Shown: positions 25,681 through 29,011 of the stretch, piece after piece
Layout of the letters: the number at the start of each line of letters is the position of its first letter
How positions within the stretch are numbered: the stretch's first letter is position 1
Virus record (IMG/VR): IMGVR_UViG_3300017744_000069
Coordinates: 1-33,157 of that record
Strand: one strand, 5' to 3'
Source of the DNA: a virus
Length of the DNA: 33,157 nucleotides
The notes under the pieces: model-generated
What the model saw: the letters and a program-made list of their open reading frames with translations, nothing else
Database searches by the model: none
What the model was told of the DNA's origin: nothing
Made by a program: the position numbers and the translations under genes

Positions 25681-26985
25681 CTAAAAACTTGTTGCCGAAG
25701 TCTCAAATGAATAGAGTCCATATCTTAACGCGTCCGCCATGTGCGATGCGTAATTGTGTTTCGGTTTCTCTCTTGCAAGGTTAGGGTTGGCATCCCACTG
25801 GTATTGATCTAACGCAGAGAGAGTTTCTTTACATGCCTGTTCTACAAACAAAGTATTATTATCTACGATTCCAGCAACCTGTGCTATACCGTCTAGTACG
25901 GACTTCTTTGCGTTAATAGTTGAGATATCGTAGTTTTGAGCAAAGTCGAATCGTGTCTGCTGTGCAGCGGAATCAATATAAATGTAGTCTATATCCCACT
26001 TTTTAATTAGAACCTGTATCTCTTGGGCGTGCTTCTCTGTTGTCTGCTCTGCGTCTAAGTACTCGTCAAGTAAGTAGTATTTCTGCTCGTCCCAGTCGTA
26101 ACCGATTACACAGAACGCAGTCGGGTCTCTGTAACCTACATCCAACCCCGCAAATACATCCATCTTTGACGTATCCAATTCACTCCCGTTGAAGATACAT
26201 TCTTCGTGGTTGAAGTTCCATATTTGACCTTCATAGGTGTTAAAGTCTGCTTCGTACTCTTGCTTAAACTCGGATTCAGACATCGATTTTCTAGCTTCCT
26301 GAATATCGTTTTCAGACATCCGAGGATTGTCCCTATAAGTCGCTCTAATCGATGCCCATTCCTGGAAGTCGTCTTGGAAGCCTCTGAAGAAGAATTCAGA
26401 GAACCAGTTGTTTTTGCCTCGTGGCGTGGATATAAATATCGCTTTGGAATTTTCTTTATCCAGTGTAGGACGTAGGGCTACGTTAAAGGCATCCTTTCCA
26501 TCCGCTAGGGCTGCTTCATCAAATATAATAAGATCGTAGGAGCGACCAACACAGGAGTCAACCTGATTAACCGAACCCATACGAATACTAGAGCCGTTGG
26601 ACATTTCAATCACTTTGTCTTTTGCGTTGTCTTTTGTAACTTCAAGATCAAAGTGCTTAATCAGTGTTCGTTGTAAATCAAAAGAAATCTGAGACAAGGC
26701 ATAGTTCGGGGACATGATCAGTATGTTCGAATTGGGAACTAGTGAGACTAGCTGCCCGATAATATTTGCAATATAGGTTTTACCCTGTCTCCTAGAGACT
26801 GCCGCACATACAAAACGGTACTTAGGATTATTTATTGCATTTATTATAGCCTTCTGTGAGGCAAGAGGTTCTACGCCGAGCATCTCCAAGTATGGATTTA
26901 CTGGTAATTTGAGAAACCTTGTCTCAGATTGTAAATCGTGTATCATATCAGATACAATATCTTTTCTGCTTATTTCAATTGCCAT
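25681..26985 (-). CDS. terL: Large terminase subunit (434 aa)
   Basis: The DNA packaging motor. The ATPase domain has a Walker A-like SRRQGKT (64-70), Walker B LIIFDE (152-157) and coupling motif FISTPRGKNN (184-193). The nuclease domain has the RNase H-type acidic residues D282 (GLDVGYRDP), D338 (YIYIDSAAQQTR) and D418 (HMADALRYGL). Length and motif spacing fit full-length terminases. It is the last gene of the transcript that begins at the small terminase, separated from that gene by about 2.2 kb of small genes. The predicted cutting mechanism (cos or headful) cannot be read from the protein by eye. Confidence 0.96.
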   Translation of the reverse strand: MAIEISRKDIVSDMIHDLQSETRFLKLPVNPYLEMLGVEPLASQKAIINAINNPKYRFVCAAVSRRQGKTYIANIIGQLVSLVPNSNILIMSPNYALSQISFDLQRTLIKHFDLEVTKDNAKDKVIEMSNGSSIRMGSVNQVDSCVGRSYDLIIFDEAALADGKDAFNVALRPTLDKENSKAIFISTPRGKNNWFSEFFFRGFQDDFQEWASIRATYRDNPRMSENDIQEARKSMSESEFKQEYEADFNTYEGQIWNFNHEECIFNGSELDTSKMDVFAGLDVGYRDPTAFCVIGYDWDEQKYYLLDEYLDAEQTTEKHAQEIQVLIKKWDIDYIYIDSAAQQTRFDFAQNYDISTINAKKSVLDGIAQVAGIVDNNTLFVEQACKETLSALDQYQWDANPNLAREKPKHNYASHMADALRYGLYSFETSATSF

Positions 26986-26996
26986 TTAGTACTCAG

Positions 26997-27320
26997 TTAT
27001 TTTTTATTTTTAGAGTATGCCTGTGTTCCAAAAAAAGCTGCTACAATACCTGCCACTGCGACAAAGTATGTAGGAGCCATAGAACCAAGCGTTTTCTGTG
27101 CTTCATCCAAACCAACTAGAGAAGCAAATACTACGGCACCTGGGTACAGCAGTAGTCCGCCTAAAGCAAACCAAGTCATCTTTCTTTGAGCGTCTCGCAT
27201 TGCATCTGCGTCTTCCAGCTCTTTTCGTTTAAATTCTAAAAACATCTGTTCTTCTGTTTCGGAAACCTTACCATCGCCATTAGTATCAGCGGGATGCGGA
27301 GAGTTATCTATTTCACTCAT
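26997..27320 (-). CDS. EF-hand protein with two membrane helices, holin candidate (107 aa)
   Basis: The N-terminus contains a complete 12-residue EF-hand calcium loop, DTNGDGKVSETE (residues 12-23: D12, N14, D16, S20 and E23 as ligands). A charged helix follows, then two hydrophobic segments, about residues 48-70 (MTWFALGGLLLYPGAVVFAS) and 80-100 (MAPTYFVAVAGIVAAFFG), and a basic C-terminus YSKNKK. Small size, two TM helices and location beside other membrane proteins make it a holin candidate, and the calcium loop would be an unusual control element; both are inference. Start: strong AGGAGG before the ATG, and an ATGA overlap with the DUF1353 gene upstream. Confidence 0.75.
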   Translation of the reverse strand: MSEIDNSPHPADTNGDGKVSETEEQMFLEFKRKELEDADAMRDAQRKMTWFALGGLLLYPGAVVFASLVGLDEAQKTLGSMAPTYFVAVAGIVAAFFGTQAYSKNKK

Positions 27321-27895: not shown

Positions 27896-28165
27896 TTACT
27901 TTTTCCTTCTTCTACGAGCCTTTGTCCTTACATACGTTGGTTTGCCTTTGACTCCCTGTGGCTTTGCACGCTTTCGTCTTACAGCTGAACGTATCTGACT
28001 CTTGCTCATTCTTGCAGCTTTAGCTGCTGGTACGCACTTTGGATATCCTTTTCGGCTTTTCTTTGCTTTCTTACGGCCGCAGGACTTAAACCCTCCGCCT
28101 TTCTTTGGTCTTGAGATGTCTACCCAGTTTTCTCCAAACCATCTCTTCAGTCCGGTCTTAGCCAC
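27896..28165 (-). CDS. Basic RWFGENWVD-type protein, DUF5872-like (89 aa)
   Basis: Begins VAKTGLKRWFGENWVDISR, continues CGRKKAKKSRKGYPKC and ends with a strongly basic tail (TKARRRRKK). The pattern of RWF-ENWVD, Cys-Gly-Arg, YPKCVPAAKAARM and a Lys/Arg-rich end matches a family common in marine and aquatic phages that I recall as DUF5872; function unknown. I chose the GTG at 28165 because GGGAGG lies seven bases upstream; an alternative GTG at 28180 would add five residues but has no such site. The GTG overlaps the stop of the upstream tiny gene by eight bases. Nucleic-acid binding is likely from charge. Confidence 0.8.
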   Translation of the reverse strand: MAKTGLKRWFGENWVDISRPKKGGGFKSCGRKKAKKSRKGYPKCVPAAKAARMSKSQIRSAVRRKRAKPQGVKGKPTYVRTKARRRRKK

Positions 28166-28334
28166 GTCTATACCTCCCACCCGCTTTCTTGTATTCTTTT
28201 ACTAGGTAAGCGTTCGCATAAGCGCTAGGATAAACTGCAAACTTTCTCTTTGTCTTTGCTTTTATTCTAGCATACAGCTTTTTATTTACGGGTATATTTC
28301 TTTTCTTGGCCGAAGACTTACGTCTACTTGCCAC
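28158..28334 (-). CDS. Tiny basic protein with GTG start (58 aa)
   Basis: Starts with GTG and encodes VASRRKSSAKKRNIPVNKK, then LYARIKAKTKRKFAVYPSAY, then ANAYLVKEYKKAGGRYRRG. The segment FxVYPSAYAN...LVKEYKxxGG is a recognisable signature of small proteins that travel with the RWFGENWVD protein in aquatic phages. It overlaps the preceding gene by 11 bases and the following gene by eight, so it belongs to a translationally coupled chain. About one third of residues are Lys or Arg and there is no acidic cluster, so binding to DNA or RNA is plausible. Function unknown. Confidence 0.8.
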   Translation of the reverse strand: MASRRKSSAKKRNIPVNKKLYARIKAKTKRKFAVYPSAYANAYLVKEYKKAGGRYRRG

Positions 28335-28461
28335 GCTTCTTTCTTTTCTTCTTCGGGTGAGAAGAGCCTTTCATGAGTTTACCGTTGGGCATATAGTGAT
28401 AGCCTTTCGGAGCCTTTTTCCTTTTCTTCTTTTTCTTTCTTCCGTAACCGTACGCCATCAT
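28324..28461 (-). CDS. Tiny Lys-rich protein (45 aa)
   Basis: Encodes MMAYGYGRKKKKKRKKAPKG, then YHYMPNGKLMKGSSH, then PKKKRKKRGK. The two Lys/Arg clusters flank a YHYMPNGKLMKG core that recurs in small aquatic phage proteins. The start ATGATG overlaps the TGA of the upstream 18-aa gene (ATGA), so coupling is expected. The second ATG at 28458 is an equally possible start. With almost half of its residues Lys or Arg it resembles a protamine-like or nucleic-acid-neutralising peptide, which is inference; it sits between the terminase subunit genes. Confidence 0.78.
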   Translation of the reverse strand: MMAYGYGRKKKKKRKKAPKGYHYMPNGKLMKGSSHPKKKRKKRGK

Positions 28462-28514
28462 CGTTTACTCGCACATTGGCAAGGGTCACACTTACAGATA
28501 TAACATGCTTCCAT
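28458..28514 (-). CDS. 18-residue cysteine-rich microprotein
   Basis: A very short gene: MEACYICKCDPCQCASKR. Five of 18 residues are Cys in the pattern C-x2-C-x-C-x2-C-x-C (C4, C7, C9, C12, C14), followed by a basic end. It has an excellent Shine-Dalgarno site (AAGGAG, eight bases before the ATG) and its stop overlaps the next start in ATGA, both arguing for real translation. The cysteine spacing suggests binding of a metal such as zinc or an iron-sulfur cluster, metallothionein-like. Function unknown. Confidence 0.75.
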   Translation of the reverse strand: MEACYICKCDPCQCASKR

Positions 28515-28535
28515 AACTTTCTCCTTTTGCTGAGA

Positions 28536-28964
28536 CTAAGGTTTAGTCCATACTGTAAATCCTACAAAAGCTATCGCCCAAAAACATATTACGGAAAAAG
28601 TTATTATTCCTAATGTTTTAAACATCTCATTCCGTTCTTTACGTTTCTTTCGTATTCTAGCTATATCCTTTGCATGTTGCAACTGGGCTTCTGCCATTCG
28701 TTGCTTGATTGAAGTATAAAGGTCTCCTTGACCTTGTATAAGACAGATATCCTTTAACTGCCTATCAAAATTAATAAGTTGTCGTTTGGCACTTTCCATG
28801 TCTAGTGCTTCTTTATACGACATTGCTCCTGTCTTCTTCTGTTCTACATCGCGGACTTTTTCTTCTACATCTGCCCACTTGCCCATGATAGAGGACAGGT
28901 TGCCCCCAGACTCCTTGACCGTAGCTATACCGTCATTCAAGGCCTTGAGAGCAGTCAATACCAT
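28536..28964 (-). CDS. Coiled-coil protein with C-terminal membrane anchor (142 aa)
   Basis: Starts MVLTALKALNDGIATVKESG; the middle is a long helix/coiled coil (VEEKVRDVEQKK, then MESAKRQLINFDRQL and IKQRMAEAQLQHAKDIARI), followed by a basic RKKRKERNE and one membrane helix (TLGIITFSVICFWAIAFVG) near the C-terminus. I chose the ATG at 28964 because GGAG lies eight bases upstream; a GTG at 28982 would add MIGEVA. The family is common in marine phages and has no proven role; coiled coil plus single TM suits a lysis accessory (spanin- or holin-regulator-like) or a membrane scaffold. No signal sequence or lipobox is seen. Confidence 0.7.
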   Translation of the reverse strand: MVLTALKALNDGIATVKESGGNLSSIMGKWADVEEKVRDVEQKKTGAMSYKEALDMESAKRQLINFDRQLKDICLIQGQGDLYTSIKQRMAEAQLQHAKDIARIRKKRKERNEMFKTLGIITFSVICFWAIAFVGFTVWTKP

Positions 28965-29011
28965 TGCTACTTCTCCTATCACTTCAGTTCTCTAAGGGCT
29001 TCCCCTTCTCG

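Follow-up and report, generated by a model that had tools for sequence, protein, structure and literature searches.

Ultra-short cysteine-rich genes form a phage family with iron-sulfur assembly genes among its neighbours

Can a reading frame encoding only 18 residues be a real phage gene, and what might its product, a peptide with five cysteines, contribute to an infection? This question was raised by a frame at 28458..28514 on the minus strand of a marine phage record from IMG/VR, of which the whole stretch of 33,157 nt (hereafter the window) was analysed.

The microgene and its surroundings

The minus-strand reading of positions 28514-28458 is ATGGAAGCATGTTATATCTGTAAGTGTGACCCTTGCCAATGTGCGAGTAAACGATGA, which translates into MEACYICKCDPCQCASKR, with the ATG at 28514-28512, a TGA stop at 28460-28458, and 5 out of 18 residues being Cys in CxC/CxxC spacing. 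Sequence, coordinates, and features had been given correctly in the first-pass annotation, the gene being located on the minus strand. An AAGGAG Shine-Dalgarno (SD) sequence (28521..28526, minus strand), detected by its match to the anti-SD, precedes the ATG with a spacing of 6. It had been called one of the best SD sites in the window, which is fair, as no more than six of the 34 remaining ORF starts were equal or better: among the 35 starts examined, the anti-SD match was longer (7 nt) at two, and four others equalled the 6 nt of the microgene. The overlap of its stop with the next start was also found as described, in the form of an ATGA (28458..28461, minus strand) shared with an ORF for a 45-aa Lys-rich protein (28324..28461, minus strand). 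Since this overlap is combined with the lack of an own SD in the downstream ORF, translational coupling of the two is likely. The pattern ATG-x2-Cys-x2-Cys-x-Cys-x2-Cys-x-Cys had a single occurrence in the window, and none of 100 dinucleotide shuffles contained it.

Predicted genes for a terminase large subunit (25681..26985, minus strand, profile match), portal, protease/major head, tape measure, and tail fibre J show that the window phage is tailed and possesses a morphogenesis module for a long tail. Upstream, the microgene is adjoined by a gene for a 148-aa protein with a hydrophobic C-terminus (28536..28982, minus strand), while the genes downstream of it are the Lys-rich one, DUF5872, and DUF1353. 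The DUF5872 region (27896-28334) is apparently split over two overlapping ORFs, both detected by profile matches, namely a 58-aa protein representing the N-terminal part (28158..28334, minus strand, profile positions 1-39) and a 94-aa RWFGENWVD protein representing a later part (27896..28180, minus strand, profile positions 53-88, below the curated cut-off). The gene may be split here or decoded by a programmed frameshift, and relatives repeatedly show a similar arrangement of two ORFs. Further along, 26997-27320 encodes a small protein that combines an EF-hand-like loop, DTNGDGKVS, with a hydrophobic C-terminus; it is conserved in contig L047, which carries its Cys peptide beside an A-type Fe-S carrier gene.

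Conservation in relatives and extent of the family

Using a degenerate reverse translation of MEACYICKCDPCQCASKR as query, we obtained two further contigs, L002 and L003, which encode the identical peptide with only synonymous codon changes. In L003, the exchanges CAA>CAG and GCG>GCA relative to the window are synonymous, and TGA>TAA alters the stop only. The AAGGAG is kept in both contigs despite an altered surrounding spacer, and in L003 the downstream gene is swapped for a different Lys-rich gene, with the peptide staying the same.

As a bait independent of Cys, the upstream 148-aa gene served as a marker for syntenic relatives, of which 37 were collected. A short SD-led Cys frame was found in 25 of them, either just after the bait gene or about 300 nt further, with detection being conditional on the core pattern and on three or more Cys, so that a Cys-less remnant of the frame would escape. 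The diverged relatives MCEVCLCVPCRCNHA, MCDVCKCDPCECQNDA, MEVCEICNCKPCRCCNA, MCIICGCSPCKCWGLRCQKV, and MEQACKCDLCNCTPCKC revealed unchanged Cys spacing. An analysis of synonymous versus nonsynonymous change, as proposed in the first-pass annotation, was run on 19 distinct core sequences from these relatives and resulted in pN 0 and pS 0.71 for the core Cys codons and a pN/pS of 0.35 for the whole 11-codon core. The relatives were likewise checked for the stops, frameshifts, or loss of Cys named there as signs against a gene, and none of them refutes it, the five Cys codons having changed only synonymously in the 19 cores. The peptide was missing from 12 of the 37 relatives and is therefore dispensable; in L274-L278 and L280-L282 it is missing altogether, and the Lys-rich gene with its own SD-like site is located directly in its place. 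The 18-residue frame is a real phage gene and, judging from its sequence, presumably translated.

Scanning IMG/VR with a pattern composed of AGGAG, ATG, and the motif revealed 46 contigs, and in 40 of these the match was a frame of only 15-19 codons, which is well beyond chance, as random stops would account for roughly a quarter to a third. An SD-independent scan with the pattern MC.C..C.C..C.C matched at least 120 contigs, with about 104 free-standing short frames among the 121 matches listed, most of them with an SD. After deduplication and removal of chance-like matches, the family comprised at least 93 distinct peptides in at least 115 distinct contexts; thus, the suspicion that a microgene family had been overlooked was borne out, and this family is far larger than one phage cluster. 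Matches lacking an SD or with a composition unlike the family (e.g., L413, L430, L465, L481, L485, L490, and L492) were left out by judgement, and the prokaryote-genome matches L260 and L262-L265 were likewise excluded from these counts. Searching 257 Gb of bacterial and archaeal genomes with the strict pattern resulted in nine matches, none of them family-like. A scan with another Cys spacing was not usable as a control, since it matched a KCxCCxCC subfamily and further family-like peptides.

Among the at least 93 peptides, lengths were mostly 14-20 aa and nearly all 14-24 aa (range 11-27), with 5-9 Cys, whose conservation among members retrieved by pattern holds by construction. The common motif is C-x2-C-x-C-x2-C-x-C, and the commonest class has six Cys and resembles MCKCKDCKCNPCKCK. 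Overall, the family architecture consists of Cys-x-Cys units in a five-residue period (C-x-C-x2-C-x-C-x2-C-x-C), and the window member displays five of the six Cys. Members were located in T7-like packaging regions (DNA_Packaging_2 and terminase), in T4-like contigs of up to 170 kb, and in long-tailed phages like that of the window. Stop/start overlaps were of the TAATG/TGATG type in 24 and of the ATGA type in 10 of the 115 contexts listed.

It had further been suggested that the peptide might mark the small-gene cluster around RWFGENWVD (DUF5872) genes. This was not supported: a related peptide was detected in only one of 87 DUF5872 neighbourhoods (L130), several of these loci being incomplete, so that this cluster is not the usual home of the family, which is spread over several phage types, many of them without DUF5872. 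The peptide was also absent from the neighbourhoods of eight HTVC019P-type or related phages and of seven DUF5872 phages, and from the part of HTVC008M searched. A tblastn search with a 27-aa member gave no match, and a non-exhaustive search found no named phage carrying the peptide. No model in Pfam, PHROGs, or NCBIfam fitted the longer members, the shorter ones being below the length limit. Absent from these libraries and from the open-access literature searched, the viral family is apparently undescribed, with the reservation that the principal small-gene catalogue for phages (Fremin 2022) lay outside this search and may already contain it as an unlabelled cluster.

In some members the frame is open for 70-82 codons upstream, and we therefore considered whether a longer protein might end in the peptide. 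The protein conserved upstream turned out to be IscU in another frame, so that the peptide is a separate gene. Within the family, contigs L402, L404, L405, L431, L459, and others harbored a 19-aa nine-Cys subfamily, MCECKQCECESCNCSCCEC, beside large secreted-protein-like genes, and these form a separate phage group. A different protein of 71 aa, starting with MCCCRCCCRCCCCCPWW and preceded by an SD, was found in two phage contigs (L257 and L258). In L486, a reverse-transcriptase-like ORF (328 aa, judged by eye) is located about 1.6-0.7 kb before the Cys peptide and near tail genes, which suggests a diversity-generating element.

Iron-sulfur assembly genes as neighbours

The strongest neighbour of the family, absent from the first-pass annotation, is iron-sulfur (Fe-S) cluster assembly. 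The search patterns contained no information on Fe-S genes. In 28 of the 115 contexts listed, the gene immediately adjoining the peptide belongs to Fe-S assembly (iscU, A-type carrier, or nfuA), and four arrangements occur. In 22 contexts, iscU precedes the peptide and overlaps its start by 8-14 nt (NifU_N, E 1.6e-50 for one member), and the order is reversed in L029, with the peptide before iscU (NifU_N, E 8.6e-54). The peptide is located directly before an A-type carrier gene in L040, L045, and L047 (Fe-S_biosyn, E about 2e-11), and an nfuA-type carrier gene directly precedes it in L030 (detected with Pfam) and L017 (profile match only). The carrier of L030 revealed the two-domain make-up of NfuA, with a NifU C-terminal domain (E 2e-18) and Fe-S_biosyn (E 3e-7). 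In the T7-like packaging regions of L385 and L447, an A-type carrier gene (iscA), iscU, and a six-Cys peptide gene form a tight or overlapping run. A full-length IscU query, a composite of two loci, was used only for finding records.

Most of the iscU-peptide pairs belong to closely related phages and thus represent few independent events, about four or five. When contigs were clustered by the neighbours they share, most of them fell into one component, and independent lineages were therefore counted by gene arrangement. At the level of whole records and outside the main iscU-peptide group, Fe-S genes were found in 8 of 40 peptide-bearing and 5 of 40 comparison records, a difference that is not significant, the comparison set including at least two peptide-bearing records. 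NifU_N and Fe-S_biosyn had no match in the 33-kb window record. In L286 and L299, which share the 148-aa gene of the window, iscU and an A-type carrier gene lie side by side, roughly 27-28 kb from the peptide. Nine DUF5872-type relatives of the window (L056, L057, L069, L074, L079, L080, L081, L123, and L127) possess their own iscU in the same gene region, with no 15-aa peptide adjoining it.

Fe-S assembly genes have been reported in only 16 of 1,352 complete marine virus genomes (PMC5332604), and the passages of that study on these genes do not mention the peptide. The auxiliary genes described there (IscU, A-type carriers) belong to the same virosphere, and to such genes the peptide is an immediate, often overlapping neighbour, as in the contexts counted above. 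It is not homologous to any Isc, Suf, or Nfu component.

A putative metal-thiolate peptide and its alternatives

Apart from Cys, the peptides consist mostly of K, N, E, D, P, and S; among the 93 listed, 80 contain no F, W, Y, or H and 13 contain any, including MEACYICKCDPCQCASKR with one Tyr. A profile built from an alignment of 23 real family members and searched against 177,635 PDB sequences (E up to 10) resulted in five matches, all of them metallothioneins (MT-1/2, MT_nc) and none significant (E 0.1-5.9), four of which align at CKCKxCKCTSCK-type stretches. Any Cys-rich profile leans to metallothioneins, and a best E of 0.1 indicates resemblance but does not prove kinship. As with the beta domain of mammalian MT-1/MT-2 and the Neurospora crassa MT, the peptides are very small, have about 25-55% Cys with CxC and CxxC, are rich in Lys, Ser, Asp, and Asn, and are almost free of aromatic residues, and their C-x-C-x-x-C-K-C-x-x-C-K aligns with CKCKxCKCTSCK. 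In contrast to metallothioneins, they are viral, comprise 14-24 instead of about 25-70 aa, match at an E of 0.1 at best, and adjoin Fe-S assembly genes in a quarter of their contexts. DUF6171 (CxxC...CxxCxC, about 48 aa) is likewise a small phage Cys protein with a CKVCKCF stretch in related gene clusters, but it is three times longer, has another Cys layout, and is a separate gene, with no evidence of descent. Composition, the metallothioneins as only resemblance in PDB, and the Fe-S neighbours favour metal binding by the family peptides, which the first-pass annotation had suggested from the Cys pattern.

We consider it probable that the family represents a minimal metallothionein-like metal-thiolate peptide, which probably serves or guards Fe-S assembly. 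It would be a flexible cytosolic peptide that needs soft metal ions (Zn2+, Cu+, or Fe2+), bound via its Cys thiolates, in order to fold, and where its translation is coupled to that of a phage IscU, A-type carrier, or NfuA, it would serve cluster assembly during infection. It may either keep Zn or Cu off the Cys sites of IscU and IscA or hand metal to these proteins; translated from one message together with IscU or an A-type carrier, it could free or supply those sites. An excess of zinc blocks Fe-S assembly in E. coli through binding to Cys of IscU, IscA, and ferredoxin (PMC6495748), which would give a metal-guarding peptide a purpose. Metal binding, the metal, and, for the window phage, the link to Fe-S assembly are inferred; with no gene for such an Fe-S protein in its 33 kb, this phage would use the peptide on the Fe-S or metal pool of the host.

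Alternatively, instead of buffering metals in general, the peptide could be a dedicated Fe-S accessory: as a partner to IscU and A-type carriers, it would itself hold a [2Fe-2S]/[4Fe-4S] cluster or iron, or pass it on. In line with this, phages of several backgrounds couple the peptide gene directly to iscU, A-type, or nfuA genes, and iscA-iscU-peptide runs occur, but three quarters of the contexts listed lack an Fe-S gene next to the peptide, Fe-S assembly genes are entirely missing from the window and from many records, and six to nine Cys within 15-19 residues exceed the need of a cluster in a peptide very compact for holding one, which makes this reading unlikely. A role in redox or disulfide chemistry, with the thiol peptide as a small reductant, lysis-timing factor, or virion component, would suit its frequent occurrence in the region of lysis and packaging, where M15-peptidase-like, small lipoprotein-like, and terminase genes are its neighbours. 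We regard it as very improbable, given that signal peptide and membrane segment are absent, neighbours differ among phage types, and CxC spacing and composition point to metal over disulfides.

Two further readings place the function in the act of translation. Polycysteine short ORFs in mycobacteria have been described as Cys-sensing leaders (Canestrari 2020, cited in PMC9094748), and here, too, a tiny Cys-rich frame with a strong SD and frequent stop/start overlaps lies ahead of another gene, which in the window has no SD, so that translating the Cys codons, rather than the peptide, might control this gene. Unlike the mycobacterial leaders, the frames are SD-led, have spaced Cys instead of long Cys runs, and precede varied genes. 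An attenuator is disfavoured, since no terminator-like site and no unusual RNA structure was found at the locus (fold z = 0.02) and the downstream genes are interchangeable and unrelated to Cys or sulfur metabolism (Lys-rich, DUF5872, and DUF1353 genes in the window; packaging, T4-like, or Fe-S genes elsewhere). The conserved Cys spacing and the choice of K/E/D/N/P would moreover be superfluous for a codon counter, and we hold a Cys-sensing leader to be quite improbable. The frame might also be only a translational starter, bringing an SD and coupling ribosomes into the next gene, with a functionless peptide, as the ATGA overlap and the SD-less downstream ORF would allow. Yet the relatives without the peptide simply possess an own SD on the downstream gene, the next gene does not overlap in many members, and the Cys pattern is kept at the protein level with synonymous-only change at Cys codons, leaving this the least credible of the readings and extremely improbable.

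We tentatively propose a further-reaching idea, which we still consider doubtful, namely that ultra-short metal-thiolate peptides are an unrecognised class and working parts of Fe-S assembly in marine phages, guarding or feeding phage IscU, A-type carriers, and NfuA. If this is true, few gene-encoded metallochaperones would be as small, and Fe-S biogenesis would have a further component. Should the peptides bind metal, hardly any metallothionein-like protein encoded by a gene would be smaller, which would suggest that phages manage the metal pool of their hosts during infection. Altogether, ocean viruses can harbor large and conserved families of genes that routine annotation misses because of their small size, and one such microgene family is tied to the assembly of iron-sulfur clusters, an auxiliary function of viruses that is known but poorly understood.
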